64,000 nt of DNA from NCBI RefSeq assembly GCF_003851545.1, contig NZ_BHVX01000014.1, forward strand, positions 62,001 to 126,000. The letters run 5' to 3'. Positions within the stretch are counted from its first letter, which is position 1. Each line of letters begins with the position of its first letter. Both the position numbers and the translations under genes were made by a program. This document shows positions 5,403 through 23,184 of the stretch, one piece after another. The notes under the pieces are model-generated. The model did no database searches and had not been told where the DNA came from. It worked only from the letters and a program-made list of their open reading frames with translations. Source of the DNA: Ralstonia sp. SET104. Lineage in GTDB: Bacteria > Pseudomonadota > Gammaproteobacteria > Burkholderiales > Burkholderiaceae.

Positions 5403-6782
5403 TCAAGAATAGTAGCTGAGCACAAATTGCCACGTTTGCCGTGTCGGATTCGCGCCGTATCGTGTATTTGACGCTCCGGTGATGCGCTGCCATTGCAAGG
5501 CCAGGTCGACCGGTCCCGCGTGGTAGCGGGCTTCCATCCAGTTCAGCGCGCTGTGGTCTATCAGGTCGGACGATCGCATCGCGGTGAGATCCAGGTGGGT
5601 CACAAATGCATCCTGCCAGCGGATGTACACGAGCGCCGCACGCCGCGTCGCCAGATTGCCGCTGTAGGCGTTCTGGCTGAGGTAGGCCCGATAGGCCGGG
5701 CCGGATCGTAGCGCTTTCCATTCGGCCGTATCGGGGGCGGCGCCGTCGTATTGGCCTTCCAGTGTCACGCTCAGTTTGTTGTTGCCGGTCCAGGTCAGGC
5801 CGGTGGCGAAGCGGTTACGCCAGGCGACCGTCCCGGCCGGACTGCCGGGCGCCTGCCATTGCTGCCATGCGTTTTGCTGCCGCCCGCCCGCCCATTCAAG
5901 GTAGGCGATGGTGGAGTCGCTCACCACGCGCGAAACGTTGAACCCCAACTGCGGCGAACGGCCTTGCTCCTGTAACAGCAGCCATTGCGGGTTGAGGTTT
6001 TCTGCAAACCGATAGCTGCCGGCCAAGAGGAACCGCTGCCTGGGGTTGCTTGCTCCCCAGTCCAGACTGCCGCCGCTCTGGCTGGGCCGGTCTGCTAGCT
6101 TGGGCGACCAAATTGCCGTCACGGAGGCGCGGCTCCAGATCTTTTGCGCGCGCACCATGGCGTTGCCAAGCCGGTTCTGACGCAGACTGTCCGGATCGGG
6201 AGAGACAACGGAGCGCACGGTGCCCGCACCGAGGAAATCGGTGGGGTTGTAGCCGAGTGCCACGCCATAGCGGGTGTTGATGCGGCCTGCATCGAGCATC
6301 GTGCGCTGGTCAAACTCATGGCTGACATACGCTTCTTTGAGCAGGTTGACGGCCCGCCCGCTTTGCAGCGCGTGCGACAGGTTCCAATCCACACGGTTGG
6401 CCACGACGGCCCGCCACTCGGGGCTCAGGCGGCCGTCCCAGCGGGCGTCGAGTGACAGCCGTTGCGTACTTCTGCCCTGCGAGCCCGTTGTGGCGACGTC
6501 CACCTGCAGTTTCAGATCGCGTGAGCGCCGTTCTTTGAACTGGGTGTCATCTGCAAGTTGCAGCGCACGCTGCAGCGCTTCGTCGTCATCGGGCCGTGCG
6601 CTTGCGGATGCGTTCGGATCGGTTTCTCGGCCGTGTTGAGGCCCCACCTGTTTCCGCCGCGGCTCTTCCTGCGCGGCTTCATCCGCGGGTTGCGGGGTGC
6701 CGCCGTCCTGGGCCCGAGCAGCAACGGCACTGCCAAGCGGCAGCAAGAGCAAGATGAAGCGGAGATTGGCGAGGAACGGCAT
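5403..6782 (-). CDS. Outer-membrane beta-barrel protein of an ABC export operon
   Basis: A 459-residue protein starting MPFLANLRF with a clear signal peptide (hydrophobic core then AVAARA before QDGG). A low-complexity charged segment follows (about 25-75), then alternating amphipathic strands ending in Y-Y-S, a typical terminal aromatic strand of outer-membrane barrels. The start was chosen at the Met preceding the signal peptide; the longer open frame upstream is not signal-like. It is the last gene of the four-gene minus-strand operon from 9840 and follows the LolA-like gene by 65 bases. I do not recognise a named family; it resembles uncharacterised DUF1302-like porins. A role as the exit port of the operon's ABC system is inferred. 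Confidence 0.72.
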   Translation of the reverse strand: MPFLANLRFILLLLPLGSAVAARAQDGGTPQPADEAAQEEPRRKQVGPQHGRETDPNASASARPDDDEALQRALQLADDTQFKERRSRDLKLQVDVATTGSQGRSTQRLSLDARWDGRLSPEWRAVVANRVDWNLSHALQSGRAVNLLKEAYVSHEFDQRTMLDAGRINTRYGVALGYNPTDFLGAGTVRSVVSPDPDSLRQNRLGNAMVRAQKIWSRASVTAIWSPKLADRPSQSGGSLDWGASNPRQRFLLAGSYRFAENLNPQWLLLQEQGRSPQLGFNVSRVVSDSTIAYLEWAGGRQQNAWQQWQAPGSPAGTVAWRNRFATGLTWTGNNKLSVTLEGQYDGAAPDTAEWKALRSGPAYRAYLSQNAYSGNLATRRAALVYIRWQDAFVTHLDLTAMRSSDLIDHSALNWMEARYHAGPVDLALQWQRITGASNTRYGANPTRQTWQFVLSYYS

Positions 6783-6847
6783 GCGCGGGTTCTGCGTTGG
6801 GTGGATCAAGCACCATGCCCACTTGCGGGCTGGCGCGGTTCGCCACG

Positions 6848-7672
6848 TTATTCGGCGCGGAAACGGGGCAGATAGTCGCGCTGCAGCCAGGCTTCGGGCA
6901 CGTTGCGCCAGGCAAAGTCGCTCCATCGCATTACCGTGACCCATTGCGCGTTCAGCCCGTCGATGATGACCGTCTCGGTGGGGCGATCCCGCCCGAGGGC
7001 TTGCTGGTAGCGACGGTAGTAGGCCGTCTTGAGGAGTTCGCCGCTGGACGCGTAGAACAGCGCCTTGCGGGTGCGGTAGCCCTGGCGGTCAACCCACAGA
7101 TCAATCGCGCTGTAGCTCACGTCGGGCCGGCGGGCGGTGAGGCGGAGCTTGTAGGTCTCGCGCGACTGCCGTTCGCCATCGACGATGGTGTCTTCTGCCA
7201 CCAGTGTTGCGTCGTAGTCGAGTGCCCAGTTCACTGTCATGACATCGCCGTTCGACGCCTGTCCGAGCAAGCGCTGCTGCGGAGAGATCGGGATGCTGGC
7301 CTTGCCGTTGGGGTCATACACCCACAGGTCCTTGCCGCTTTTCAGCGTCAGCTTGCCGGCGTCGCGTTCCGGGCTTACGTAGCGCAGCAGACTGCGGAAT
7401 TGTCCGCGGGTCGGGTCTGCGCGCGAATACAGGATCAGCGTGCTCGATTCATCGGCCTTGCCTTGCTTGTAGCCGACCAGATCCACCTTCAGGCTGAACG
7501 ATTTGCCCGGGTTGCGCACTTCGTCGCTCAACGCCAGGATCTCTTGCGCGTTGGGTACGGCCCATGCGGCCTGCATGCCGCCGCACAGGAACAATACGCA
7601 CGTCAAGCTCAGGCTCGTCAGTGCGCGGCGCGACAGGCTTGCAAAGCGGCTGCGCGAACTTGCGTTGCTCAT
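6848..7672 (-). CDS. LolA-like outer membrane lipoprotein-sorting family protein
   Basis: A 274-residue protein with a signal peptide (ending AAWA before VPNAQEIL) and the features of the 'outer membrane lipoprotein-sorting protein' family, which has a LolA-like open barrel. Visible family features include the SFSLKVDLVGYKQGK opening strands, a K-SGKDLWVYDP turn, and a conserved aspartate-rich DYDATLVAEDTI region. Such proteins shuttle hydrophobic cargo through the periplasm. It sits between the permease (34 bases upstream) and the beta-barrel gene, implying a trans-periplasmic carrier for the ABC system. This is not canonical LolA, which lacks this operon setting. The cargo is unknown. Confidence 0.82.
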   Translation of the reverse strand: MSNASSRSRFASLSRRALTSLSLTCVLFLCGGMQAAWAVPNAQEILALSDEVRNPGKSFSLKVDLVGYKQGKADESSTLILYSRADPTRGQFRSLLRYVSPERDAGKLTLKSGKDLWVYDPNGKASIPISPQQRLLGQASNGDVMTVNWALDYDATLVAEDTIVDGERQSRETYKLRLTARRPDVSYSAIDLWVDRQGYRTRKALFYASSGELLKTAYYRRYQQALGRDRPTETVIIDGLNAQWVTVMRWSDFAWRNVPEAWLQRDYLPRFRAE

Positions 7673-10439: not shown

Positions 10440-10898
10440 ATGGTCACGCTGAATATCAACGGCAAATCCGTGGAAGTTGATGCCGATCCGTCAACGCCGC
10501 TGCTCTGGGCGTTGCGCGACAACCTTGGTCTGACTGGCACGAAATTCGGTTGCGGTGTCGCCTCGTGCGGTGCCTGCACTGTGCACCTGAACGGCCAGCC
10601 CACGCGCAGTTGCGTGCTGCCGATCTCCGCGGTGGCGGGCCAGCAGATCACCACCTCTGAACACATCAATGACGACAAGGTCGGCCGCGCCGTGTTCGAC
10701 GCCTGGGTCAAGCACGACGTGGCGCAATGCGGCTACTGCCAGAGCGGCCAGATGATGAGCGCGGTGGGTCTGCTGCGCACCAAGAAGAAGCCGACCGACG
10801 CTGACATTGATACCGCGATGGCCGGCAACCTGTGCCGTTGTGCGACGTATCAACGTATTCGCGCGGCCATTCATGACGCAGCGAAGTCGCTGGCCTGA
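10440..10898 (+). CDS. iorA: Molybdenum hydroxylase small [2Fe-2S] subunit (isoquinoline 1-oxidoreductase alpha type)
   Basis: A 152-residue protein with the two iron-sulfur clusters of the xanthine dehydrogenase family. The plant-ferredoxin-like cluster uses Cys 38, 43, 46 and 58, and the second uses Cys 97, 100, 132 and 134 in the CGYCQSGQ and LCRC motifs. It passes electrons from the Mo site of the large subunit to an acceptor. AAGGAG precedes the start, and the large subunit follows 20 bases later. No FAD subunit gene is present, as in IorAB-type enzymes that use cytochromes. The true substrate (N-heterocycle or aldehyde) cannot be read from sequence. Confidence 0.9.
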   Translation: MVTLNINGKSVEVDADPSTPLLWALRDNLGLTGTKFGCGVASCGACTVHLNGQPTRSCVLPISAVAGQQITTSEHINDDKVGRAVFDAWVKHDVAQCGYCQSGQMMSAVGLLRTKKKPTDADIDTAMAGNLCRCATYQRIRAAIHDAAKSLA

Positions 10899-10918
10899 GC
10901 CCCACCGGAGAACTCACG

Positions 10919-13162
10919 ATGCGTATTCGAAACCTTGAAGCGCTGGCCGGTGGCGGCGCGCAACATCAACCGGCATCTACTGACGCCGACGCCGCGACGC
11001 TTGATCGCCGCAGCTTTTTGAAACTCACGACGCTGGCGGGCGGCGGTCTTGCACTGGGAATTGCACCGGTGCTGGCTGGCGCGCAGGACGCGAAGGCCAA
11101 GCCGCCTTCAGCACCGCAGGCGTTCATCATCATTGCGCCGGACAACACCGTCACCGTGGCAGTGAACCGGCTGGAGTTCGGGCAGGGCGTTCATACAGCA
11201 CTGCCGATGGCGCTGGCTGAAGAACTCGACGTGGATTGGCGCAACGTGCGAGGTATGCTCGCGCCGGCGGCTGATCCGTACAAGGACCCGGGCTTCGGTA
11301 TCCAGATGACGGGCGGCTCGACGGCACTGAACCACTCGTTCCAGCAATACCGGGAATTGGGCGCGCGTGCGCGTGCGATGTTGATCTCGGCAGCGGCTGA
11401 GCGCTGGAAGGTTGATCCGTCGATGTGCCGCACGGCCAATGGCGTGATCACCTCGGGCAGCAACCGCGCCACGTACGGTGAACTCGCGCAAGCCGCGATG
11501 GCGTTGCCGGTGCCAGCACAGGTCACGCTGAAGAACCCGTCGCAGTTCCGCATTGTCGGCAAGCCGACGCCGCGCCTGGATGCACGCGCGAAGCTCGACA
11601 GTTCGCTCAAATTTGGCCTCGACACACGTCTGCCGAACATGAAGGTGGCCGTGCTGGCCCGCCCGCCGCGCTTTGGCGGCAAGGTGGCCAAGTACGACAC
11701 GGCGGCGGCCAAGGCCGTCAAGGGCGTGGTCGATGTGCTGCAGATCCCGACCGACCGTGGCGGCACGGGCGTGGCCGTCATTGCGGACGGCTACTGGCCT
11801 GCCAAGCAGGGCCGCGACGCGCTGCAGGTCACGTGGGAAGACACCGGCTCGACCGTATCCACCCCCGCGCTGATGGCGGAGTACAAAAAACTCGCGGGCC
11901 AGCCCGGCACGATGGCCAAGGCCGCCGATGTGAGCGCAATCCAATCCGCTGCGAAGCACATTCAGGCTGATTACGAATTTCCGTACCTCGCCCACGCGCC
12001 GATGGAGCCGCTGAACTGCACGATCGATCTGCAGCAGGACGGTGGCAAGACGACCGGCGCCAAGGTGTGGGTCGGCTCGCAGTTCCAGACCATCGACCAG
12101 GGTGCGATCGCCAAGGTGCTCGGCGTGCCGCCCGAGAAGATAGAGCTGAACACGATGATGGCCGGTGGCGGTTTCGGCCGGCGCGCGATCACCACGTCAG
12201 ACTACGTGGTGGAAGCGGCCAACGTGGCCAAGGCCTACGCAGCGGCCGGGCACAACGGCCCCGTCAAGGTGATCTGGAGCCGCGAAGATGACATCCGCGG
12301 CGGCTACTACCGCCCGATGCATCTGCATCGCGTGAACGTGGGCGTGGACAGCAGCGGCAAGGTCGTCGGCTGGGACCATGTGATTGTCGGTCAGTCGATC
12401 CTCAAGGGCACGCCGTTCGAGGCTTTCATGGTCAAGAATGGGGTGGACAGCACCATGACCGAGGGCGTGATCGAAAACGACTACGGCTTCCCGATGCAGG
12501 TGACGGTGCACCACCCGGACGTGAACGTGCCGGTGCTGTGGTGGCGTTCTGTGGGCCATACGCACACGGCCTATGTGATGGAAACCATGGTGGATGAGGT
12601 TGCGCACGCCGCCAAGCAAGACCCTGTGGCCTTCCGCCTGGCGCGCTTTACCGGCAAGGAACACGAACGCCATCGTGCGGCGCTGCAACTTGCCGTGGAC
12701 AAGTCCGGCTACGGCAAGCGCAAGCTGCCCAAGGGCCAGGCCTGGGGCGTGGCGGTGCATGCATCGTTCGAGTCAGTGGTGGCGTATGTGGTTGAGGTGT
12801 CGGTCGACCAGGGCAAGCCACGTGTGCATCGTGTCACGGCTGGCGTGCATGCCAACCGCGTGGTCAACCCGATGGGTGCGCAAGCGCAGATCCAGGGTGC
12901 TTGCGTGTTCGGCCTGGCGATGATTCAGCCGGGCTTTGCCATCGACATCGAAAACGGCGCCACCAAGAACAGCAACTTCACCGATTTCCCGCCCGTGCGC
13001 ATGCCAGACGCGCCGCCGGTGAGCGTGTTCTTTGTGCCGTCGGAAGACAACCCGACCGGCCTGGGTGAGCCCGGCACGCCGCCGATTGCACCGGCGGTCG
13101 CCAACGCGCTGTTTACTCTGACCGGCAAGCGTCAGCGCAAGCTGCCGTTCGACACGGTGTAG
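10919..13162 (+). CDS. iorB: Molybdenum hydroxylase large subunit (isoquinoline 1-oxidoreductase beta type)
   Basis: A 747-residue molybdopterin-binding subunit. An RR motif (R30-R31 in DRRSFLK) followed by a hydrophobic stretch resembles a Tat signal, so the complex is probably exported folded to the periplasm. The Mo-site loop GGGFGRRA and the catalytic Glu in GEPG (E717, in LGEPGTPP) are present. The start has GGAGAA upstream. It forms an operon with iorA, and a hairpin terminator follows at 13188. Enzymes of this class hydroxylate N-heterocycles or oxidise aldehydes and often need the cytosine form of the Mo cofactor; a MocA-like gene lies nearby at 13741. Confidence 0.9.
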   Translation: MRIRNLEALAGGGAQHQPASTDADAATLDRRSFLKLTTLAGGGLALGIAPVLAGAQDAKAKPPSAPQAFIIIAPDNTVTVAVNRLEFGQGVHTALPMALAEELDVDWRNVRGMLAPAADPYKDPGFGIQMTGGSTALNHSFQQYRELGARARAMLISAAAERWKVDPSMCRTANGVITSGSNRATYGELAQAAMALPVPAQVTLKNPSQFRIVGKPTPRLDARAKLDSSLKFGLDTRLPNMKVAVLARPPRFGGKVAKYDTAAAKAVKGVVDVLQIPTDRGGTGVAVIADGYWPAKQGRDALQVTWEDTGSTVSTPALMAEYKKLAGQPGTMAKAADVSAIQSAAKHIQADYEFPYLAHAPMEPLNCTIDLQQDGGKTTGAKVWVGSQFQTIDQGAIAKVLGVPPEKIELNTMMAGGGFGRRAITTSDYVVEAANVAKAYAAAGHNGPVKVIWSREDDIRGGYYRPMHLHRVNVGVDSSGKVVGWDHVIVGQSILKGTPFEAFMVKNGVDSTMTEGVIENDYGFPMQVTVHHPDVNVPVLWWRSVGHTHTAYVMETMVDEVAHAAKQDPVAFRLARFTGKEHERHRAALQLAVDKSGYGKRKLPKGQAWGVAVHASFESVVAYVVEVSVDQGKPRVHRVTAGVHANRVVNPMGAQAQIQGACVFGLAMIQPGFAIDIENGATKNSNFTDFPPVRMPDAPPVSVFFVPSEDNPTGLGEPGTPPIAPAVANALFTLTGKRQRKLPFDTV

Positions 13163-13187
13163 TTGTGACCATGGCTTGATGTGATTG

Positions 13188-13228
13188 AAGCCGGCATGCA
13201 GTCGTGTGTGCCGGCTTTCTTGTTCTTG
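13188..13228 (+). terminator. Rho-independent terminator after iorB
   Basis: AAGCCGGCA (13188-13196) pairs with TGCCGGCTT (13209-13217), followed by the T-rich tail TTCTTGTTCTTG. It ends the iorAB transcript before the ohr gene. Confidence 0.7.
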
Positions 13229-13306
13229 CAGCCCAGTAATCGTCCAGTTTTGCGGACCGATTCTTGCGTCCGCGTTGGCGTTGTTCATCCACCGGAGAAG
13301 CATGTC

Positions 13307-13741
13307 ATGGCATTGAATATCCTGTACACCGCCCACGCCAAGGCCACAGGCGGCCGTAATGGCCATACGCAAACCGAAGACGGACAGGTCTCGCACGACT
13401 TGTCGGTGCCCAAGGCCATGGGCGGCCCTGGCAAACCGAACACCACCACGCCCGAAGACCTGTTTGCCGCCGGCTATGCCGCGTGCTTCGGCTCGGCGTG
13501 CGACTTTGTCGCCAAGAGCATGCTCAAGCTCAATCCGAGCAACATCGAGATCCACTGCGATGTGGGTATTGGTACGCGGGATGAGGGCGGTTTTGGTCTG
13601 AAGGTGGGCCTGACTGCACGGATCAGCGGCCTGTCGCAAGCCGATGCCGAGAAGCTGGTGGCACAGGCGCACCAGGTGTGCCCGTATTCGAACGCCACCC
13701 GCAACAACGTGGAAGTCACGCTCAAGACCGAGGTGGCCTGA
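13307..13741 (+). CDS. ohr: Organic hydroperoxide resistance protein (Ohr/OsmC family)
   Basis: A 144-residue Ohr peroxidase that reduces organic and lipid hydroperoxides using the two redox cysteines C60 (GYAACF) and C125 (CPYSNAT); both are present. The start at 13307 follows CCGGAGAAG; an earlier ATG at 13302 is out of frame. Its stop overlaps the next ATG by one base (TGATG). A second Ohr with its own OhrR lies at 61486. This copy has no adjacent regulator gene. Confidence 0.92.
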   Translation: MALNILYTAHAKATGGRNGHTQTEDGQVSHDLSVPKAMGGPGKPNTTTPEDLFAAGYAACFGSACDFVAKSMLKLNPSNIEIHCDVGIGTRDEGGFGLKVGLTARISGLSQADAEKLVAQAHQVCPYSNATRNNVEVTLKTEVA

Positions 13742-14349
13742 TGCCGCAGCCGCCTGTTGTGGGTGCGGTTGTGGGTGTACTGCTGGCCGCGGGCCGCGGC
13801 AGCCGGTTTGACGCGGCGGGCGGAGTCAACAAGCTGCTCGCGCCGCTGCCCGATGGAACACCCGTGGCGGTGCAGTCCGCGCGCCACCTGAAGCAGGCGC
13901 TGGGCGATGTGGTGGCTGTGGTGCCTGCGGCTGCCACACATGGCGCGCAGATCGACGAGTTGATCGCGCTATTGGCCAAGACAGGCTGCGAGGTATTGCG
14001 ATGTTCAGGCGCCGCACGTGGCATGGGCGCCAGCCTGGCTGCCGGCGTGGCCGCGCGCCCGCAAGCTGGCGGCTGGGTCATCGCTCTGGCCGACATGCCG
14101 TGGATTGCCCCTGACACCATCACGCAAGTTGCCAACGCACTCGACCCACACCATTGCGTTGCGCCCTTCCATGCGGGACAGCGAGGCCACCCCATCGGCT
14201 TCGGTGCTGATTTCTTCATCGGCCTGACATCGCTTGACGGGGATGAGGGCGCGCGGCGGCTGATTGACCCCGCCACGCTGATCCGCATCGAAACCCATGA
14301 CGCCGGCATCCTGCGCGATGTCGATACGCGCGCTGATCTGGCGCGCTGA
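13741..14349 (+). CDS. MocA-like nucleotidyltransferase (molybdopterin cytidylyltransferase family)
   Basis: A 202-residue MobA-like NTP transferase with the nucleotide-binding LAAGRGSRF motif (15-23) and the ADMPW motif near residue 118, as in MocA proteins that attach CMP to molybdopterin. IorAB-type enzymes use this cytosine-dinucleotide cofactor, so the location 600 bases after iorB suggests it serves that enzyme. It starts on the last base of the ohr stop codon and should be translated with it. The XdhC-like chaperone often found with such genes is absent. Confidence 0.82.
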   Translation: MPQPPVVGAVVGVLLAAGRGSRFDAAGGVNKLLAPLPDGTPVAVQSARHLKQALGDVVAVVPAAATHGAQIDELIALLAKTGCEVLRCSGAARGMGASLAAGVAARPQAGGWVIALADMPWIAPDTITQVANALDPHHCVAPFHAGQRGHPIGFGADFFIGLTSLDGDEGARRLIDPATLIRIETHDAGILRDVDTRADLAR

Positions 14350-14364: not shown

Positions 14365-15072
14365 TTACAACGAAGCGCCGCCGCACATCACGATCTGCTG
14401 ACCGGTGATGGCGCCGCCGTATTCGCCCGCCAGAAAGGCGGCCATGGCGGCCACCTCTTCGGGAGCGATGAAGCGGCCGATGGGCGGCATGCGTGGTGGG
14501 GTTTGCGCGCGTGCGGGGTCGCGCAGGAATGGCGTGTCTGTCGCGCCGGGCGCGATCACGTTGACGGTGATGCTGCGCGGCGCCAGTTCCGCTGCCCACG
14601 AGCGCGCCATGCCCACGAGGGCCGCCTTGGTGGCAGCGTATTGGCTGCGTGTGGGCGCACCGTTGGCGGTGCGGCTGCCGATCAGGAGGATACGGCCGCC
14701 GGCCGGCATGCGCGGCACCAACTTATCGGCCAGGAACGCTGCAGCATCCACATGCACGCGCCACATGGCAGCGCCATCGGCGGCAGACAGTTCGCCCAGC
14801 GGGGCGGTCCGCATGAAACCCGCCGCATGCACCAGCGCATCGACTGTGCCGAGGCTGTCGCACACTTTGCCCAGGCGCTCGAAATCGGTCACATCCACGT
14901 GTGCGATCTCCAACCCTTCGATCGGCTCGGCGGGCGCGGTCCTGCACAGGCCTGTTACCCGCCAGCCGTCGGTGAGCAGGCGCGCCGCAATGGCGTGGCC
15001 GATGCCGGACGAGGCACCCGTCACCAGGGCATGGCGGGCTGTAGCAGGGGGGTATGCGGGGTGGGTCGGCAT
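14365..15072 (-). CDS. Short-chain dehydrogenase/reductase (SDR)
   Basis: A 235-residue classical SDR with the NAD(P)-binding TGASSGIG motif (18-25), the catalytic Ser133, Tyr145 and Lys149 (YAATK), and the usual C-terminal GxxTG. It starts two bases after the DeoR stop, so it is the last gene of the minus-strand acid-sugar cluster. It probably oxidises or reduces a sugar-derived hydroxyl group. The substrate is not evident. Confidence 0.88.
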   Translation of the reverse strand: MPTHPAYPPATARHALVTGASSGIGHAIAARLLTDGWRVTGLCRTAPAEPIEGLEIAHVDVTDFERLGKVCDSLGTVDALVHAAGFMRTAPLGELSAADGAAMWRVHVDAAAFLADKLVPRMPAGGRILLIGSRTANGAPTRSQYAATKAALVGMARSWAAELAPRSITVNVIAPGATDTPFLRDPARAQTPPRMPPIGRFIAPEEVAAMAAFLAGEYGGAITGQQIVMCGGASL

Positions 15073-15074
15073 GT

Positions 15075-15839
15075 TTATTCCAGCGGGGCGATTTCCACAT
15101 CAACTTCGTCGCGCTCGTGGAAGGGCTCGAGTTGATCGGGCGACGCACCGTTGTCGGTAATGAGCGTCCAGGGCCGCTCGATGGGGGTCCAGTGCTGCTG
15201 GCTGGCGCGCCCCAGCTTGTCTGCCGTGGCAAGCACGAACACTTGCGCAGCTTGGCGGATCACGCATTCCTTCAGATACGCCTGATCGGCCGAAGCCTCG
15301 CACAAGCCGTTGGTGGCGACCACGCCGTCGGCGCTCAGAAATGCCTTGTCGACGCTCACGCGGCCGAGCGACAACTGCGCGAGCGGCCCGAGCGTGCTCA
15401 TGCTGGATGGGCGCACATCGCCGCCGATGAGCGTGACCGGGATGCCGCCGGCCGCCAGCGATGTCACAACCATGAGGTTGTTGGTGACAACGTGGACTTG
15501 CCTGGCCGAAAGATGACGCGCCAGCGCTGCGGTGGTCGTGCCGCCGTCAAGGAAGATGGTGTCGCCGTCGGCGATGTGCACTTGCGCCAGGCGGGCAATC
15601 GCTTCCTTCTGCTCGCGTGCGCTGCTGCGGCGCTCCTCCAATGGTGCTTCGGGTTCGTGTGAGCCGACTGCGGCCGCGCCGCCGTACGTGCGCAGGATGC
15701 GGCGATCAGAAGCGAGCGCGCGCAGGTCGCGGCGCACGGTGGCTTCCGACATGCCGAAGTGCTCGCACAGCGTGGCGACATCGTTCATGCCGCCCAGCAC
15801 GGCTTTCAGCATGGCCTCGCGGCGCTTCGTGACTTTCAT
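15075..15839 (-). CDS. DeoR-family transcriptional regulator
   Basis: A 254-residue protein with an N-terminal DeoR helix-turn-helix (about 18-45, with SEATVRRDL as recognition helix) and a sugar-phosphate-sensing DeoRC domain carrying the GGTTT motif (near 98) and GGD and SADG motifs. Such regulators repress catabolic operons until a phosphorylated intermediate binds. It lies inside the acid-sugar cluster and is the natural candidate to control it. The inverted repeats at 23170 and 23324 are possible operators. Confidence 0.9.
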   Translation of the reverse strand: MKVTKRREAMLKAVLGGMNDVATLCEHFGMSEATVRRDLRALASDRRILRTYGGAAAVGSHEPEAPLEERRSSAREQKEAIARLAQVHIADGDTIFLDGGTTTAALARHLSARQVHVVTNNLMVVTSLAAGGIPVTLIGGDVRPSSMSTLGPLAQLSLGRVSVDKAFLSADGVVATNGLCEASADQAYLKECVIRQAAQVFVLATADKLGRASQQHWTPIERPWTLITDNGASPDQLEPFHERDEVDVEIAPLE

Positions 15840-15902
15840 GTCTGCAAATATCCCACCGGCCTCAGATGGGGGGCCACTGTAGCAAATCGGCCCCGGCTCG
15901 GG

Positions 15903-17078
15903 TCAGCCACGTACCCACGATTCATCCACCGTCACGTATTTGATGCGCTGGCGGAAATAGGTGAAAGCAATGTGCAGCGCACCGTCGTTCCCTTGCACGA
16001 TGGAGGGGTATGAATACTCGCGGTTGCGCTGGTCGGCGGAGTTGTTGGTCATGCAGTAGCCATCGCCAATTTCAATGTTGCGCCGGCGCCAGGTGTGGCC
16101 GCCGTCTTCCGAAATGGCCAGCGACAGGGGCGCGCGCGGGGCGCCCCAGAACGCGGTGCCGCGCGTGGACGCCTGCTGGTCGCGCAGCTCGCCGTGGTCT
16201 TCGGCGTCTTCAATGTCGTCGTACAGCGAGGTGCGGCGGCCAGTGCTGTGCGAGGCATCGCTCTCGTTGTAGACAAGTGCCAGATGACCGTTGCGCAGTG
16301 CCACGAACTGGATCGACGAATTGTTGTTGGGCAGCGTTGTTGGCTGCGGTGCGCTCCAGGTGCGGCCGTCCTGGGAGCGGCTGGCGTAGATGTGGTCCGC
16401 CCAGCGGCTGCGGTACAGCGCGAGCAGGCTGCCGTCGGCCAGCGTCTGCACGTTCATGTGCACGCAGCCGATGCTGTCGGGCACGTCGTAGCGGTTCCAA
16501 TTGCGGCCCTGATCTTCGGAGATCATGACGGCGCTGACGTCGTCGTTGCCGACCCAGCGCTCGCCGGGCTGCGTGCGGCACAGGAACACGGGGCACGCCC
16601 AGGCGCCATCCGGCAGCACGACGATGGGCTGGCGCACGAAGGTGCCGGCCTGGTCGAACAGCGTTTCGATCGGCCCCCAGCTATGGCCGTTATCGGTTGA
16701 GATACGCCGGCGCACGATGGCCGTGTTCTGGTGGCCGGAGAGCTGCGCCGTGTAGATCAGCCAGAGGTCACCGGTTGGCGTAGTAAACAGCACCGGGTTC
16801 TGCTCTGATCGCGTCGGGTCTTCCGATAGCTTGGTTGCGGGTTGCCATTCCGTGCTGCCCGCTGCCAGCCGCGACAAGTAGATCGACACATCGGGAATGC
16901 CTTCCTGTGTGCCGCCAAACCACACGCACAGCAAGTCGCCGTTGGGCAGGGCGTGCAGGTTGGCTGCGTGGTTCTGCACGCAGGGCGTGGGCAGGAAGGC
17001 TTCGCGGCGCTCGGCGTCGGTATAGGCGGCGCGCACGCTGGAATCGAAGGCGGCGTAGGCCGGAAGGGTTGCACTCAT
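15903..17078 (-). CDS. Sialidase-fold beta-propeller protein (predicted neuraminidase family), cytoplasmic
   Basis: A 391-residue protein with four Asp-box repeats, S-x-D-x-G-x-x-W like: 127-134, 187-194, 235-241 and 323-330. The opening QNHAANLHALPNGDLL and WFGGTQEG-PDV motifs are typical of the BNR_2 'predicted neuraminidase' family. It lacks a signal peptide, so it should work in the cytoplasm. Members of this fold include sialidases and several polysaccharide lyases, and most are uncharacterised. In this cluster it may process an imported oligosaccharide or glycoside before the aldolase, dehydrogenase and kinase steps. There is no nan gene set for sialic acid nearby. Sialidase activity itself is not supported. 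Confidence 0.8.
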   Translation of the reverse strand: MSATLPAYAAFDSSVRAAYTDAERREAFLPTPCVQNHAANLHALPNGDLLCVWFGGTQEGIPDVSIYLSRLAAGSTEWQPATKLSEDPTRSEQNPVLFTTPTGDLWLIYTAQLSGHQNTAIVRRRISTDNGHSWGPIETLFDQAGTFVRQPIVVLPDGAWACPVFLCRTQPGERWVGNDDVSAVMISEDQGRNWNRYDVPDSIGCVHMNVQTLADGSLLALYRSRWADHIYASRSQDGRTWSAPQPTTLPNNNSSIQFVALRNGHLALVYNESDASHSTGRRTSLYDDIEDAEDHGELRDQQASTRGTAFWGAPRAPLSLAISEDGGHTWRRRNIEIGDGYCMTNNSADQRNREYSYPSIVQGNDGALHIAFTYFRQRIKYVTVDESWVRG

Positions 17079-17108
17079 GTTGTGTCTCGATGCTTGGTGT
17101 CTGGGGGA

Positions 17109-18539
17109 TCAGTGCGCCGCGTTACGCGGCTCGATGCTGCTGACCGATGCATTGGCCGTGGTGGGCTCGATCGTGCGAAAGAACAGCTTCTCCACCACCA
17201 GCACCAGGGCCGGTGTGACGAGTGCGATGTACATATTGTCGATGCCGAACGGATTGCCCAGCAGGTACCAGATGGTGGTTGTTACCGCTGCCAGAATCAG
17301 GCCAAAGACCACGCCGCGGCGGCTGTTGAAGAAGGGCAGGTAGATACCGATGAGCGCAACGACGGATACGGAGAGCCGCAGCGCCCGCGTGAAGAACGAC
17401 AACGCCAGAATTTGCGGTACGAACAGCACGAACACCAGCGGCAGCACGCCCACCGCCAGCGAAATCCAGCGCGTGGCGCGCAGCTCCTGCTCGGGCGTGG
17501 GCTGATAGCGGGGTACATAGAAGTCAGCCACGATAAGCGAGGCAATCGCCAGCGCCACGGTGCACACGCTCACGAAGATCGATGCCACCAGCGAAGTTGT
17601 CACCACGCCAGCCAGCAGCGGGTGCATGTGCTGCAGGAACACCGGCAGCGCATACAGGCTCTTGATGCCCGGGAACAGGTACTTGGCGGCTACGCCGATG
17701 AAGCCCAGCGCAATCGAGATCGGCACGCACAGCACCGCCGCCATCAACGACGCCGAGCGTGCAGACTCCGGGCTCTTGGTGGACGAGATGGCCTGCACGA
17801 TGAACTGCGTCGAGAAGATCGCCCCGGCCGAGCCGATGATCCACGCACCGATGGTGCCGCCCGACAGCGCACCCTTCCACGTGAAGTAGTGCTCCGGCAT
17901 GGTTTGCACCATGGGCGTGATGCCGCCCGAGAGCTTCCACGCCACCGCGACGATGATGCCGATGCCCAGCACCTTGACCGCGCTGTGCACGATGGTCAGG
18001 TAGGCCACGCTCTTGAGCCCGCCCCACACGAAATAGATCGTGCTGATGACGGCCGTGATGAGCGCCGCCGTCGGCAAGTTGATGTGCATGACCGTGGAGA
18101 TGGCCGCCGCGCCGCTCACGTAGTTGCCCACGTTCACCAGCAGCAGCGAATAGATCATGATGGCCGACACCACCAGCTTGGCCGTGTTGCCGTACTTCTT
18201 GGCGATGAAGCCCGAGATGGTGAACTGCCCCGATGCGTACAACCGCTTGGCCATGAACAGGCCGAAGAACAGAAAGCCGATCGACGCGGCGATCACCGAC
18301 CACGACGCGGCAATGCCCACGCTGAACGCCTCTTGCGAGGTGCCCACCGTTGACTTCGCGCCGATGTATTCCGACATGAGCAGCACGGCCACCACCACGG
18401 CCGGCATTGAACGCCCGGCCACCATGAACTGCTCGGAATTGCGGCTGCGCAACCGGATGCTGGCCACGCTGGTCACCACGATATAGATCACGACCATGGC
18501 GATGATCATGGTGGTGTCCCAGTTCGAAAACGAGGTCAT
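17109..18539 (-). CDS. Sodium:solute symporter (SSS family)
   Basis: A 476-residue membrane protein with about 13 hydrophobic segments and SSS-family features: the SEQFMVAGR-P loop after the first helix and YIGAKSTVGTSQ in the next segments. The start at 18539 follows CAGGAGACA; a longer frame upstream is not membrane-like. It likely imports the substrate of the surrounding catabolic genes with Na+. It lies 30 bases upstream of the sialidase-fold gene and 115 bases after the kinase-PdxA gene. Confidence 0.9.
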   Translation of the reverse strand: MTSFSNWDTTMIIAMVVIYIVVTSVASIRLRSRNSEQFMVAGRSMPAVVVAVLLMSEYIGAKSTVGTSQEAFSVGIAASWSVIAASIGFLFFGLFMAKRLYASGQFTISGFIAKKYGNTAKLVVSAIMIYSLLLVNVGNYVSGAAAISTVMHINLPTAALITAVISTIYFVWGGLKSVAYLTIVHSAVKVLGIGIIVAVAWKLSGGITPMVQTMPEHYFTWKGALSGGTIGAWIIGSAGAIFSTQFIVQAISSTKSPESARSASLMAAVLCVPISIALGFIGVAAKYLFPGIKSLYALPVFLQHMHPLLAGVVTTSLVASIFVSVCTVALAIASLIVADFYVPRYQPTPEQELRATRWISLAVGVLPLVFVLFVPQILALSFFTRALRLSVSVVALIGIYLPFFNSRRGVVFGLILAAVTTTIWYLLGNPFGIDNMYIALVTPALVLVVEKLFFRTIEPTTANASVSSIEPRNAAH

Positions 18540-18654
18540 CTTTGTCTCCTGATTTTGAGCGGATGGCTCTGGCCAGCCCGGCGTGTATCCGTCGGGTCTG
18601 GCCTTGCGCGGGGGCGCGCGATGTTGCTGCGTACTACATGGTGTTTGGGTTGCC

Positions 18655-20964
18655 TCAGGCCGCGCGCGCTGCTTCGCGGTCGTCGTGCCGGGTGGCGAGT
18701 TCGCAGGCCTGGCGGAAGGCTTCGAGCATGCTGCGTTCATCGGCGATGCCCTTGCCGGCAATGTCAAACGCGGTCCCATGGTCGACCGAGGTGCGGATCA
18801 CCGGCAGGCCCACAGTGACGTTCACCCCAGCCTCCAGGCCCATCACCTTGACCGGTCCGTGGCCCTGGTCGTGATACATCGCGACCACCACGTCAAAATC
18901 GCCCCGGCCGGCGCGGAAGAACAGCGTGTCGGCGGGCAGCGGGCCTTCGACGCGCCAGCCGCGCGCCCGCAGCACCTGCACGGCGGGGATGATCTTTTGC
19001 TCTTCCTCACCATGGCCGAACAGGCCATTTTCTCCTGCATGCGGGTTGATGCCGCATACGCCGATGCGCGGGTTGTCGATGCCGGCGCGTACCAGCGTGG
19101 CATGCGCGCGTTCAATGGTGCGCTGGACCAGGCCCGGCTCGATGCGGCGGATGGCATCGAGCAGGCCGATATGCGTCGTTACGTGGATCACGCGCAGATT
19201 GGGCGCCACCAGCATCATCGAGACTTCATCGATGCCGGTCAGGTGCGCCAGCATTTCGGTGTGGCCGGGGAAGATGTGGCCGCCCGCGTGTAGCGCTTCC
19301 TTGTTCAGCGGCGCGGTGCAGATGGCGTCCAGTTCGCCTGCGGAAGTCAGCTCGACCGTGCGGGCGATGTACCGATATGCCGCATCGCCTGCGATCGGTG
19401 AGAGCTTGCCGTAGGGCAGGTCGGCAGGGATGAGGCCGAGGTCGATGCAGTCCACCACGCCGTAGCGGAAAGCCGCGTCGGCGGGGCGTTCGATCGAGCG
19501 CACGTCCAGCGCCACGCCAGCGCGTTGGGCGGCATCGCGCAGGCGTGCCGTGTCGCCAATCACCAGTGGCCGGCATTGCTCGTACACCGCGCGGTGCGTG
19601 AGTGCCTTCATGATGATTTCAGGGCCGACACCGGCGGCATCGCCCATGGTGATGCCGATGACAGGACGATAGGTCATTGCGTGAGTTCCTTTGGGTGGAG
19701 TGCCGACCGCGGTTTCGATCAACCGTCGCCAGGCGGTATGCAGAGAGCCGGGTGCGCCAAAGCCACCCGCTTTGGTGACGATCGGCAGCACGCGGCCGAC
19801 ACCCGTGAGTCGGGCGTGCAGCAACGGCATCCCGGGTTCAATTTCATCGGTCAGTTGCAGCGCGTCGATGCCGGCCGCCGACAGCACGGCGCGCGCGGTT
19901 TCACCGCCCGTGGCAATCAAGCCGCCGGCATGCGGCAGAGCGGGCGCCAACAACGTAGCGAGGCGGCGGCAGAAGCGCAGCCCGTCGGCGCTGTTGCCGC
20001 GCGTGGTCTGGCTGAGCGTGACCAGCACGTCGCGGCCTTCGCACAGCGCGTCGATCACGGTCTGGGTGATATCGGCCTGCGGTGTGTCGAGTGCCTCAAC
20101 GGGAAGCTCCAGCGCCAACAAGCCGGCACCTGCGCCTGCCTTCAATTCGCGGGCCTGTGTGTGCGACACGCTGGACATGCTGCCCACCACCGTCAGCACC
20201 GGTCCGGTGATAGAACTCACGACATCGCCTTCGGCGGCAGCGTTGGCACCGCCAAGCCCAAGCGCGCGAATGAGCGCGGGCGCCAGCCCGGCCGAGCCGA
20301 CCCAGAAGGCGTGCGCCAGCTGTGCCGAGGCATCGGCGATGTACGCCAGGTCTGCGTCGGTCTCGGCATCGCACACCACGGCGTGTACGCCGTCTGCTTG
20401 CAGTGCGGCGAGGTGACCTGCCAGCGCGGTGGTACCGGCGCGGATATCGCCCAGCGTCAGCACCGAGGTCTGCAGCCCCTGGCGGACAAGCATGTCCAGG
20501 AGATCGCCGCGGCCCGCGATGCCTTCGTTGCGCCACACCTCGGTGTCTTCCACCGCCACGCCATGCAAGCGTTGGCAGCCGCGGAGCGTGGTACGTCCCG
20601 CCGCCGGAAACGCCGGCGCTACGATGGCAACGCCCGCCAGCGGCACCAGTGCCGCCACCTCGGCGGCGACATTGCCGCGCAGAGTCGAATCGATTTTCTT
20701 ATAGAGACGCGTGGCCGGTCGGGCCAGCGAGCGCCACGCAGCGACTTGCGCGGCTGCTGCATCGGCGACGTTGGCGCGGCGCGTATCCGTGTCCAGCGCG
20801 AGTACGTCGGCGCTGATCGGTTGGCCCATATCGGCGCGGAGCATGACCGCACTGCGCAGTCCCGCACGCACGCCGGCCACCGCGCAATCGGCGGCGCCTG
20901 ACAGGTCGTCGGCCAGGATCAGCAGCTTTGGGGCGGCTTGAGGGGCTTGGGCGGTTGTGTTCAC
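18655..20964 (-). CDS. Fused four-carbon acid-sugar kinase (DUF1537) and PdxA2-type dehydrogenase
   Basis: One uninterrupted frame of 769 residues. Residues 1-429 are a DUF1537 kinase: the N-terminal LLILADDLSGAADC and YKKIDSTLRGN motifs and the C-terminal VTKAGGFG nucleotide loop. Residues about 430-769 are a PdxA-type dehydrogenase with GITMGDAAGVGPEI and the metal-binding His in PGHTE, NPHAGE and YHDQGHG. In characterised D-threonate and D-erythronate pathways these two proteins phosphorylate the acid sugar at O4, then oxidise and decarboxylate it to dihydroxyacetone phosphate. The GTG start overlaps the ADH stop as GTGA. An internal ATG at 19677 with AAAGGAA upstream could also yield separate PdxA2. 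A lost stop codon or a sequencing error are alternatives to a true fusion. Confidence 0.87.
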   Translation of the reverse strand: MNTTAQAPQAAPKLLILADDLSGAADCAVAGVRAGLRSAVMLRADMGQPISADVLALDTDTRRANVADAAAAQVAAWRSLARPATRLYKKIDSTLRGNVAAEVAALVPLAGVAIVAPAFPAAGRTTLRGCQRLHGVAVEDTEVWRNEGIAGRGDLLDMLVRQGLQTSVLTLGDIRAGTTALAGHLAALQADGVHAVVCDAETDADLAYIADASAQLAHAFWVGSAGLAPALIRALGLGGANAAAEGDVVSSITGPVLTVVGSMSSVSHTQARELKAGAGAGLLALELPVEALDTPQADITQTVIDALCEGRDVLVTLSQTTRGNSADGLRFCRRLATLLAPALPHAGGLIATGGETARAVLSAAGIDALQLTDEIEPGMPLLHARLTGVGRVLPIVTKAGGFGAPGSLHTAWRRLIETAVGTPPKGTHAMTYRPVIGITMGDAAGVGPEIIMKALTHRAVYEQCRPLVIGDTARLRDAAQRAGVALDVRSIERPADAAFRYGVVDCIDLGLIPADLPYGKLSPIAGDAAYRYIARTVELTSAGELDAICTAPLNKEALHAGGHIFPGHTEMLAHLTGIDEVSMMLVAPNLRVIHVTTHIGLLDAIRRIEPGLVQRTIERAHATLVRAGIDNPRIGVCGINPHAGENGLFGHGEEEQKIIPAVQVLRARGWRVEGPLPADTLFFRAGRGDFDVVVAMYHDQGHGPVKVMGLEAGVNVTVGLPVIRTSVDHGTAFDIAGKGIADERSMLEAFRQACELATRHDDREAARAA

Positions 20965-22130
20965 GGCAGCAGGCGCTGGTAAATGGCCTTGATGTCCGCA
21001 TGGCTCAGCGGCTTCGGGTTGTTGCCCAGCAGACGCTTGACCTTGGAAGCAGCCTCGGCCAGCGCATCCAGGTGCGATTCCGACACGCCAAACTGGCGCA
21101 GGTCCTGCGGGATCTGCACGACGTCGGTCCACTCGGTCAGCCGTTCGATGAGCGCGTCGGCGGCGGTCTCGTCGTCTGCGTCATGGCTGCTGATGTCAAG
21201 CGCGCGTGCCACGTTGGCCAAGCGCACGACGATAGCGTCCTTGTTGAACGCCATCACGTGCGGCAGCAGCATCGCGTTGGCCACACCGTGCGTAATGCCA
21301 AACATGCCACCCAGCGGATACGCCAGCGCATGCACGGCAGCCGTGCCGGCAGCGGTCAACGCCAGGCCGCCGTACATCGAGCCCAGCATCATTGCCTCGC
21401 GCGCCTTGACCGAGCGGCCGTTCTCATACGCCTCGACAATGCTCGCGCCAATGAGCCGCATCGACTCCATCGCAAACATGTCGCTCACCGGGTTCGCCTT
21501 GGTCGAGATATACGACTCCAGCGAATGAACGAACGCATCGATGCCGGTGGCGGCAGTGATCGGCTTGGGCAAGTCGAAGGTCAGCTCCGCATCGAGAATC
21601 ACCAGTTGCGGCAGCAGATGCCGGCTTACGATGCCCACCTTCAGCTCTTCGTCGGGCAACGTGACGATCGCGTTGGGGGTGACTTCAGAACCCGTGCCTG
21701 CCGTGGTCGGCACCAGCACCAGCGGAATGCCTGGGCGCTTGATCAGATCAATGCCGAGCCATTCGCGCAGCGGCTGTTCATTGGTCAGGCGCACTGCAAA
21801 CAGCTTGGCTGCATCCAGCACGCTGCCGCCACCGATCGACAGAATGGCATCCGGTGCAAACGGCGCAATCTGCTCGCGAAACACGGTTTCGACGTTTTCA
21901 ATGGTCGGTTCCGGCTCAACGCCGCGCACGATGCAAGCTTCAATGTCACGCGCGGTCAGCGCTTGCACCACGCGCCCGATCACGCCGTTCTGCTCCATCA
22001 CCGGTTGCGTGATGAGTGCGACGCGTTTGACTGGTACGTCGAGCAGCGCGAGTTTCTCTGGCAGCAACGCCAGGCTGCCGGCGCCGTGGACGATGTGCTT
22101 GACGGTCTGGAAGTGATAGGTCTGGGACAT
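20961..22130 (-). CDS. Iron-containing alcohol dehydrogenase
   Basis: A 389-residue group III alcohol dehydrogenase with the NAD-binding GGGSVLDAAK loop, the TTAGTGSE motif and the metal-ligand region D-A-F-V-H-S-L-E plus H-G-V-A-N-A-M-L-L-P-H. It probably oxidises or reduces a hydroxy-acid or aldehyde in the acid-sugar route. It follows the DapA-like gene by 33 bases and overlaps the kinase start by four bases (GTGA), indicating tight translational coupling. Fe2+ use is inferred from the family. Confidence 0.9.
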   Translation of the reverse strand: MSQTYHFQTVKHIVHGAGSLALLPEKLALLDVPVKRVALITQPVMEQNGVIGRVVQALTARDIEACIVRGVEPEPTIENVETVFREQIAPFAPDAILSIGGGSVLDAAKLFAVRLTNEQPLREWLGIDLIKRPGIPLVLVPTTAGTGSEVTPNAIVTLPDEELKVGIVSRHLLPQLVILDAELTFDLPKPITAATGIDAFVHSLESYISTKANPVSDMFAMESMRLIGASIVEAYENGRSVKAREAMMLGSMYGGLALTAAGTAAVHALAYPLGGMFGITHGVANAMLLPHVMAFNKDAIVVRLANVARALDISSHDADDETAADALIERLTEWTDVVQIPQDLRQFGVSESHLDALAEAASKVKRLLGNNPKPLSHADIKAIYQRLLP

Positions 22131-22163
22131 GGCGTTCGGTGATGTGGGGGCGGGCGGCGAGGC

Positions 22164-23057
22164 TCAGGCGACGTTCAGTGCAGCCCGGTAGATGGCGAGG
22201 GCTTCGGCCAGCCGCTCGCGGCTTTTCGCATCGAGCGGCTTGGCCGGCGAGCGTGCGGGGCCAGCGGGCATGCCGAGCATTTCTGCCGCGGTCTTGAGCA
22301 CCACGGGCATGGTGCCGAGCGCAAACGCATCACGCAGCGCGCGCAGCGATTCCTGCGCGGCGCGTGCGGCCGGAATGTTGCCCGCCTGGAACTGGTTCCA
22401 GATCGACATGACAACGTGCGGCACCGCATTGGTGGTGGCCGCCACGGCGCCATCGCCACCGGCAATCAGCGTCCACAGGATCATTGAATCGGTGCCGGTG
22501 AAGACGGCAAAGTCGTCGCGGCGCAGGTTGATCAACTGCAGCAGGCGGTCGAAATCACCGCCGCTGTCCTTGATCGCGCGGATATTCGGGATGTCCGCCA
22601 AACGGCGCACGGTGTCGATCGTGAGCGTCACGCCGGCCTTGGCCGGAATCGTGTACAGCAGGATCGGCAGCGACGTGGCACGCGCGATCTGCTCGTAATG
22701 CGCAAACAACTCTGGCTGCGTGGCGCCATTGAAGTACGGCGTGATGACGGACACGCCATCCACCCCTACGTCCTGCATTTTGTGGTTCAGCGCGATCACA
22801 TCACGCGTGGCATAGGCGCCGGTGCCGGCAAAGACGGGCACGCGGCCGCGCGCCTGTTCCACGGCAATGCGCGTAATGCGCAGCTTCTCTTCTTCGCTCA
22901 GCGCGATGAATTCGCCATTGGTGCCGAGCACGAACAGCCCGTGGACGCCCGCATCGATCAGCCGATCGACCAGCACGCGCAGGCCGTTTTCGTCCACGTC
23001 TTCGGTTGGGGTCATCGGGGTGATCAGGGCCGGGACGATCCCTTTGAACGTGGTCAT
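22164..23057 (-). CDS. DapA/NanA-family aldolase or lyase
   Basis: A 297-residue TIM-barrel enzyme of the dihydrodipicolinate synthase/N-acetylneuraminate lyase superfamily. The Schiff-base Lys163 (AIKDSGGDF), catalytic Tyr135 (LLYTIPAK) and the GTNGE substrate loop (45-49) are present. The start at 23057 matches family length; upstream codons are not conserved. It is the first gene of the minus-strand catabolic cluster, so it is more likely a 2-keto-3-deoxy-sugar-acid aldolase or dehydratase than biosynthetic DapA. The exact reaction is unknown. Confidence 0.88.
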   Translation of the reverse strand: MTTFKGIVPALITPMTPTEDVDENGLRVLVDRLIDAGVHGLFVLGTNGEFIALSEEEKLRITRIAVEQARGRVPVFAGTGAYATRDVIALNHKMQDVGVDGVSVITPYFNGATQPELFAHYEQIARATSLPILLYTIPAKAGVTLTIDTVRRLADIPNIRAIKDSGGDFDRLLQLINLRRDDFAVFTGTDSMILWTLIAGGDGAVAATTNAVPHVVMSIWNQFQAGNIPAARAAQESLRALRDAFALGTMPVVLKTAAEMLGMPAGPARSPAKPLDAKSRERLAEALAIYRAALNVA

Positions 23058-23169
23058 GTGGCGATCCTTTCGTGGTGGGCGAGCGGCCCGTGAGTCAGCT
23101 TGAGCAGGAGCGATGCATGGTCCGTATGCCAAGCGCATCGATCGGTTTGGTCATTGTAATTCAATAAAT

Positions 23170-23184
23170 GATCGAATCGATCAA
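23170..23184. promoter_or_regulatory. Perfect 7-1-7 inverted repeat, possible operator of acid-sugar operon
   Basis: TGATCGA-A-TCGATCA lies about 110 bases upstream of the first catabolic gene. It is near-identical in half-site to a repeat at 23324-23336 and similar to one upstream of the porin (29016-29031). It could be the DeoR- or GntR-type binding site; which protein binds is unknown. Confidence 0.5.

Follow-up and report, generated by a model that had tools for sequence, protein, structure and literature searches.

Comparison with described systems

Catabolism of D-threonate pairs a kinase, DtnK, with a dehydrogenase step carried out by PdxA2, and the pathways for L-threonate and D-erythronate employ OtnK, OtnI, OtnC and LtnD/DenD. 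The sialic-acid (nan) operon of Escherichia coli combines a carrier, a lyase of the DapA superfamily and nanQ. Here we describe a seven-gene operon in a stretch of 64,000 nucleotides from Ralstonia sp. SET104 (contig NZ_BHVX01000014.1, positions 62,001 to 126,000; hereafter the window), which lies on the minus strand at window positions 14365–23057. It codes for a DapA-type aldolase (lyase), an iron-containing alcohol dehydrogenase (Fe-ADH), a DUF1537 kinase fused to a PdxA-type dehydrogenase, a sodium:solute symporter (SSS), a sialidase-fold protein, a DeoR/GlpR-family regulator and a short-chain dehydrogenase (SDR). A route from a C7 3-deoxy-2-ulosarate through D-threonate to dihydroxyacetone phosphate (DHAP) is the probable function of these genes. 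Less firm, and evenly balanced in our judgement, is the proposal that the operon is inducible and serves the complete catabolism of such an acid, most likely 3-deoxy-D-lyxo-2-heptulosaric acid (Dha) or a small Dha ketoside.

As in D-threonate catabolism, a DUF1537 kinase and a PdxA-type dehydrogenase occur together at this locus, and the corresponding cluster of Pectobacterium passes the D-threonate equivalogs. DtnK itself is a DUF1537 kinase of D-threonate, and a D-erythronate kinase of the same family is known (PMC10971088). In the window, however, the two enzymes are fused and score below the equivalog cut-offs, and they would form the downstream half of a more extended route, to which an aldolase and a reductase, together with a symporter and a sialidase-fold protein, also belong. 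The likeness to the L-threonate and D-erythronate pathways lies in the use of DUF1537 kinases on C4 acids. No OtnI-, OtnC- or LtnD-type gene was found by Pfam among the seven operon genes, and PdxA would here perform an oxidative decarboxylation. With the nan operon the locus shares the logic of a carrier, a DapA-superfamily lyase and, in some clusters, a YhcH/NanQ-type protein. However, the window lyase is not a NanA (154.6 bits against a cut-off of 382 for TIGR00683 and 169.1 against 281 for NF003164; Lys and not Leu at position 138), and a C4-acid kinase and PdxA are present instead; NanE and NanK families were absent from the proteins scanned, in a scan that did not search for them by name.

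The operon and its conservation

The operon is real. The first-pass annotation had placed seven genes on one strand, and all seven were recovered on the minus strand at those coordinates from the list of open reading frames (ORFs), Pfam and NCBIfam. It had also noted an overlap between the Fe-ADH and kinase genes, which the nucleotide sequence confirms: the TGA stop of the former overlaps the GTG start of the latter (GTGA) in ...GCCGTGAACACA..., and the remaining gene pairs are spaced by 2 to 115 bp. Kinase and PdxA lie in one frame as a single protein of 769 aa. Gene identities, gene order and the fusion are read from sequence, as are the conservation, active-site residues and enzyme replacements in relatives given below. 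The source genome (4.8 Mb, 58 contigs) contains four DapA-family genes, two PdxA genes and a single DUF1537 kinase, so that the DapA-type and PdxA copies of the cluster are extra ones; the second PdxA gene is located at G000:C9:34723–35589, and the window PdxA is therefore not the sole PdxA.

Relatives of the sialidase-fold protein were taken as the best 80 of 331 candidates from a collection of species genomes, and neighbouring genes were counted when they scored above 70 bits on the same fetched stretch as the sialidase-fold gene. The lyase, a reductase (Fe-ADH or HIBADH-type), the DUF1537 kinase and PdxA occurred together in 62 of the 80 loci, so the cluster is more than chance; the 80 include many close kin (e.g., nine of Pectobacterium type), and the counts do not represent independent events. 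Counted singly, the DapA-type lyase was found in 64 loci, the kinase in 65, PdxA in 66, Fe-ADH in 56 and a HIBADH-type reductase in seven (one weak). Symporters were present in 67 loci and TctA carboxylate transporters in eight, the SDR in 64 (five of these at 72–75 bits only), DeoR in 56 and a DUF386 (YhcH/NanQ-type) gene in 18. The 18 loci lacking the full set comprised eight short or incomplete stretches (L011, L039, L058, L062, L065, L070, L080, L086), one with a broken sialidase-fold gene (L049), two cases with the enzyme set at another place of the genome (L043, L048) and seven with full flanks.

Gene order was colinear with the window in most Burkholderiales. In Pectobacterium, kinase-PdxA is divergent from ADH-lyase-symporter-sialidase-DUF386-SDR; Bacillus safensis has the order lyase-ADH-symporter-sialidase-regulator-kinase-PdxA; in Lucifera, kinase-PdxA-lyase come first; and Vreelandella has TctABC-sialidase on one strand and lyase-kinase-PdxA-HIBADH-DeoR-SDR on the opposite one. 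In locus L042, the SSS symporter is replaced by a TctABC tripartite carboxylate transporter. Because arrangements differ among Burkholderiales, Pectobacterium/Dickeya/Serratia, the Bacillus pumilus group, Lucifera and Halomonas types while the set co-occurs, the functions have been kept together through rearrangement. Bacillus swezeyi and Halomonas dongshanensis carry the enzyme set as a cluster of its own at a distance from the sialidase-fold gene, so that the linkage of lyase, reductase, kinase and PdxA persists without that gene (L110, L111).

The DapA-type lyase

An alignment placed the cluster lyases alongside DapA, NanA and YagE of E. coli, and E. coli DapA numbering is used throughout. 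The 68 sequences consisted of 64 from the 80 loci, those of plasmid loci L004 and L005 and those of L110 and L111, the window's own being excluded; the 18 controls were three from the own genome and 15 drawn from 13 further genomes within the class, and 13 of the 18 resemble ordinary DapA. The active site of the window lyase reads T44, N45, F107, Y133, K138 and K161. A signature of N45, F107 and a basic residue at 138 was found in 65 of the 68 cluster lyases and in none of the controls. The Schiff-base Lys161 and Tyr133 are retained in the cluster lyases. The catalytic triad of DapA is T44-Y107-Y133, and in the window lyase the DapA residues Y107 and T45 have not been kept. The window lyase nevertheless passes the general dapA model TIGR00674 (236.6 bits; cut-off 206.15), which the Pectobacterium lyase (L064) does not reach at 194.5 bits.

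Position 138 is Leu in E. coli NanA and YagE and Lys or Arg in the signature-bearing cluster lyases; in DapA, the residue at this position binds the C4 aldehyde-acid aspartate semialdehyde through its carboxylate. DapA condenses aspartate semialdehyde with pyruvate to a C7 2-keto-dicarboxylate, and by analogy the proposed cleavage of Dha would mirror this reaction, with a C7 2-keto-3-deoxy-dicarboxylate yielding pyruvate and a C4 aldehyde-acid. From its residues, the window lyase is proposed to be a 3-deoxy-2-heptulosarate (Dha) aldolase. In L059, L070 and L087, the sialidase-fold protein is accompanied by a lyase of another DapA subfamily (T45, Y107, Phe or Met138), perhaps through independent recruitment or for a different substrate.

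Reductase, kinase and PdxA

The window Fe-ADH reached none of the NCBIfam equivalog cut-offs. Six Halomonas-type loci (L042, L044–L047, L052) lack Fe-ADH and have a beta-hydroxyacid dehydrogenase in its place. That of L042 is closest to 2-hydroxy-3-oxopropionate (tartronate semialdehyde) reductase at 182 bits, below the equivalog cut-offs (397 for PRK11559 and 340.75 for TIGR01505). Tartronate-semialdehyde reductase reduces an aldehyde next to a hydroxy-acid, and its substrate is one carbon shorter than threuronate. Since Fe-ADH is replaced by a relative of an aldehyde/hydroxy-acid reductase, the common job of both reductases would most simply be the conversion of a C4 aldehyde-acid to a tetronate.

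In Pectobacterium (L064), whose sialidase-fold protein is 65% identical to that of the window, the kinase passes the NCBIfam D-threonate kinase model (617.3 bits; cut-off 450) and PdxA the D-threonate-4-phosphate dehydrogenase equivalog (684.7 bits; cut-off 583). This kinase gives a full-length match of 869 bits to the Protein Data Bank (PDB) entries 4xfm/4xgj; listed there as uncharacterized, they are reportedly the D-threonate kinase from Pectobacterium studied by Zhang et al. (2016). The window PdxA passes the general pdxA equivalog (367.4 vs. 290.35 bits), and both it and the Bacillus PdxA score best on general PdxA models.

Regulation

A 15-bp palindrome (Table 1) lies upstream of the first operon gene and is a candidate operator. 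Across 38 loci, the 17.9 kb surrounding the lyase gene starts held 15 sites of its class, compared to nine in 750 kb elsewhere, an enrichment that is somewhat inflated because the class was chosen after the sites had been seen. The upstream region of L052 was left out, its gene start not having been recognised.

Proposed route from a C7 ulosarate to DHAP

In the proposed route, the SSS symporter would import Dha or its ketoside, and the sialidase-fold protein would release Dha from the ketoside in the cytosol. The DapA-type lyase would then cleave open-chain Dha by a retro-aldol reaction into pyruvate and threuronate, the C4 aldehyde-acid, which Fe-ADH would reduce to D-threonate. Phosphorylation by the DUF1537 domain would give 4-phospho-D-threonate, and its oxidation and decarboxylation by the fused PdxA domain would yield DHAP and CO2, while DeoR would repress the operon via the upstream palindrome. 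Every substrate in this scheme, the direction of the Fe-ADH reaction and the function of the operator we infer. The first-pass annotation had suggested an undescribed pathway that leads to DHAP and starts from a longer acid sugar of the keto-deoxy kind or from a glycoside; co-occurrence of these functions in varied gene orders and across phyla supports that outline, and its broad input is narrowed here to a C7 3-deoxy-2-ulosarate giving D-threonate.

Fischer bookkeeping of the eight 3-deoxy-hept-2-ulosarates showed that retro-aldol cleavage followed by reduction leads to D-threonate from just two of them, which leaves D-lyxo (Dha) or the D-xylo isomer as the source acid. Land plants contain the pectin rhamnogalacturonan II (RG-II), whose sugars include two 3-deoxy-ulosonic/ulosaric acids, 3-deoxy-D-manno-oct-2-ulosonic acid (Kdo) and Dha. 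The D-lyxo isomer is Dha, a component of RG-II (PMC6353982), and Dha and Kdo have been suggested as possible GH33 substrates in plants (PMC6852159). No description of Dha catabolism was found in searches of open-licence literature. The locus could represent the first complete route by which bacteria degrade Dha: its DapA-type aldolases (N45/F107/K or R138) would form a new, Dha-cleaving subfamily, threuronate would be reduced by enzymes of two unrelated families, and the sialidase-fold protein would act as a cytosolic Dha ketosidase. We put this combination forward tentatively and consider it somewhat doubtful as a whole. If true, it would explain the bacterial use of Dha and give D-threonate a physiological source of biological origin. 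Automatic dapA and pdxA labels on such genes (e.g., in a Caballeronia record) would then be wrong in function, and the enzymes would be of use in RG-II analysis.

Weighing of the proposed route

Several observations speak against the route as drawn. The best kinase equivalog for the window kinase is indeed D-threonate kinase, but at 176.9 bits for a cut-off of 450, and its PdxA part scores 329.1 of the 583 bits required. Kinase and PdxA of Bacillus safensis (L071; 322.8 and 342.6 bits) and the kinase of Lucifera (L076; 309.9 bits) also fall below the D-threonate cut-offs. Because these enzymes miss the cut-offs, only the Pectobacterium version is firmly assigned to D-threonate among the versions scanned. 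Seven loci with full flanks (L055, L083 and the five Bradyrhizobium loci L074, L081, L082, L084 and L088) have the sialidase-fold gene and no enzyme set on the stretch, and in the one Bradyrhizobium genome checked the sole kinase match was weak and belonged to another type of locus. The alphaproteobacterial lyases of L059, L070 and L087 lack the signature. Arg138 also occurs in 17 of the 18 control lyases; being so common in the family, it argues against a NanA-like identity more than it would support Dha. The palindrome class lies upstream of the lyase gene in only 14 of the 38 loci, and a scan for sigma-70-like promoters found none, with 1.6 expected in shuffled sequences. The similarity of the sialidase-fold protein to PDB entries is weak and its catalytic residues are not assigned, residue alignments to GH33 enzymes being too poor to place the Tyr/Glu/Asp and the Arg triad, and the SDR has no assigned role in the route.

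The sialidase-fold step is the weakest after that of the SDR. Forty-five sequences of the family, of which the window protein is 62–94% identical to the other 44, aligned with few gaps (alignment A1) and with 11 invariant Arg among many invariant positions. A sialidase-type repeat domain (BNR_2) is present. As with GH33 sialidases, the protein belongs to the sialidase superfamily, and a PDB search with the family profile retrieved GH33-type sialidases weakly (E 1.6e-7 at best), together with chance matches; in contrast to them, it gave no pairwise PDB match at E 0.01 and has no hydrophobic N-terminus in a simple hydropathy window, which is not a signal-peptide predictor. The cytosolic location claimed in the first-pass annotation is reasonable, as the N-terminus is not hydrophobic. 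A Bacteroides GH33 enzyme, BT1020, is reportedly a Dha-hydrolase. Given the superfamily, the adjoining ulosonate-type lyase and the NanQ-type gene in some clusters, a ketoside hydrolase is the natural guess. It is rather unlikely, but far from negligible, that the pathway operates as proposed with a sialidase-fold protein of another kind, i.e., a lyase, an opener of anhydro-sugars or lactones, or a ring-opening or anomerising protein. Such a role would fit the N-terminus and the weak PDB relatives, as well as the small monomeric solutes that symporters usually carry and the existence of beta-propeller lyases. The BNR_2/sialidase-superfamily assignment, however, favours the hydrolase, the 11 invariant Arg would fit a carboxylated ligand, and some clusters have a separate YhcH/NanQ-type gene.

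With the same enzymology, the input might be another C7 3-deoxy-2-ulosarate (e.g., D-xylo) or, in the Burkholderiales version, one giving erythronate or L-threonate, which we consider unlikely. The low scores of the window kinase and PdxA on the D-threonate models are in line with this, as are the formation of D-threonate from the D-xylo isomer too and the DUF1537 D-erythronate kinase mentioned above. However, Pectobacterium L064 carries D-threonate enzymes beside its closely related sialidase-fold protein, and we know of no natural C7 3-deoxy-2-ulosarate besides Dha.

Two separate branches, one in which kinase-PdxA would process imported D-threonate or a related tetronate and another in which the lyase, Fe-ADH and sialidase-fold protein would act on sialic acid, Kdo or ketodeoxygluconate, are quite improbable. 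Each enzyme family has such members, DUF1537 kinases occur without a DapA-type cluster lyase in L112 and L113, and plasmid loci L006 and L007 combine a similar DeoR (62–72%) and kinase (41–43%) with neither a lyase nor a sialidase-fold gene. Against such a division, lyase, reductase, kinase and PdxA remain together apart from the sialidase-fold gene in L110 and L111, the signature-bearing cluster lyases have Lys/Arg where NanA and YagE have Leu138, and cleavage of Kdo would give arabinose, leaving the C4 kinase with no substrate. That ordinary lysine and vitamin B6 paralogues were joined by chance is hardly credible and was rejected: the window proteins do pass the general dapA and pdxA cut-offs, but the genome has further DapA-family and PdxA genes, Tyr107 of DapA is lost and the cluster recurs across phyla.

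Two other substrate classes were rejected. A sialic-acid or Kdo pathway was discarded as the principal explanation, with NanA cut-offs far off, a basic residue at 138 and no C4 acid yielded, and C6 keto-deoxy acids were discarded because their cleavage yields a C3 and not a C4 partner.

Distribution

The best 80 of the 331 candidates covered 96% down to 62% identity to the sialidase-fold protein and came from Ralstonia, Paraburkholderia, Cupriavidus, Herbaspirillum, Halomonas/Vreelandella, Pectobacterium, Dickeya, Serratia, Bradyrhizobium, Bacillus, Lucifera and others, the closest named matches among these 80 being Ralstonia. One plant-associated laboratory strain with the operon is Paraburkholderia fungorum LMG 16225 (L012). 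Sampling 300 genomes within the order gave two matches at E 1e-20 (the own genome and one 28% identical), and in the relatives search the gene was present in five of 16 genomes of the genus, the own included. With this scattered occurrence and the high identity among relatives, the sialidase-fold gene is accessory but strongly conserved. In the plasmid collection, 18 records had a DNA match and none covered 80% of the operon; three of the five plasmid regions opened were without annotation.

Single loci showed further variants. In an uncultured Paraburkholderia (Vmac symbiont; L049, 9950–11055), two ORFs each hold part of the sialidase-fold match, the stretch carries no enzyme set, and the locus looks decayed. 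A DUF1537 kinase locus of Bradyrhizobium (L113, 6517–9594) has a HIBADH-type gene and no DapA-type lyase, and in Halomonas dongshanensis (L112, 7258–12265) a DUF1537 kinase, likewise with no DapA-type lyase, is adjoined by a TctA transporter.

Features of the locus and neighbouring genes

The coordinates of the operon genes and the candidate operator are listed in Table 1. For the symporter, a start at 18539 was preferred over the mechanical ORF start at 18779.

Table 1. Genes of the operon and candidate operator, in window positions.
Feature	Position	Strand	Evidence
DapA-type (class I) aldolase, 297 aa	22164..23057	-	PF00701, E 7.1e-79
Iron-containing alcohol dehydrogenase (Fe-ADH), 389 aa	20961..22130	-	Pfam Fe-ADH domains
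DUF1537 (SBD_N/NBD_C) kinase fused to PdxA-type dehydrogenase, 769 aa, GTG start	18655..20964	-	PF07005, PF17042, PF04166
Sodium:solute symporter (SSS), 476 aa, proposed importer	17109..18539	-	PF00474
Sialidase-fold (BNR_2) protein, 391 aa	15903..17078	-	PF13088, E 9e-69
DeoR/GlpR-family regulator, 254 aa	15075..15839	-	PF00455, PF08220
Short-chain dehydrogenase (SDR), 235 aa	14365..15072	-	PF13561
15-bp palindrome TGATCGAATCGATCA, candidate operator	23169..23183	.	sole site of its class in window

Elsewhere in the window, a minus-strand ORF of 513 aa at 5403–6944 had no Pfam match at E 0.001 and may not be a gene. Beside the operon, on the plus strand at 10440–14349, lies a row of genes that includes a 2Fe-2S protein, an OsmC/Ohr-type protein and a MobA-like nucleotidyltransferase, as well as a protein of 747 aa that, judged by eye, resembles the large subunit of molybdenum hydroxylases.

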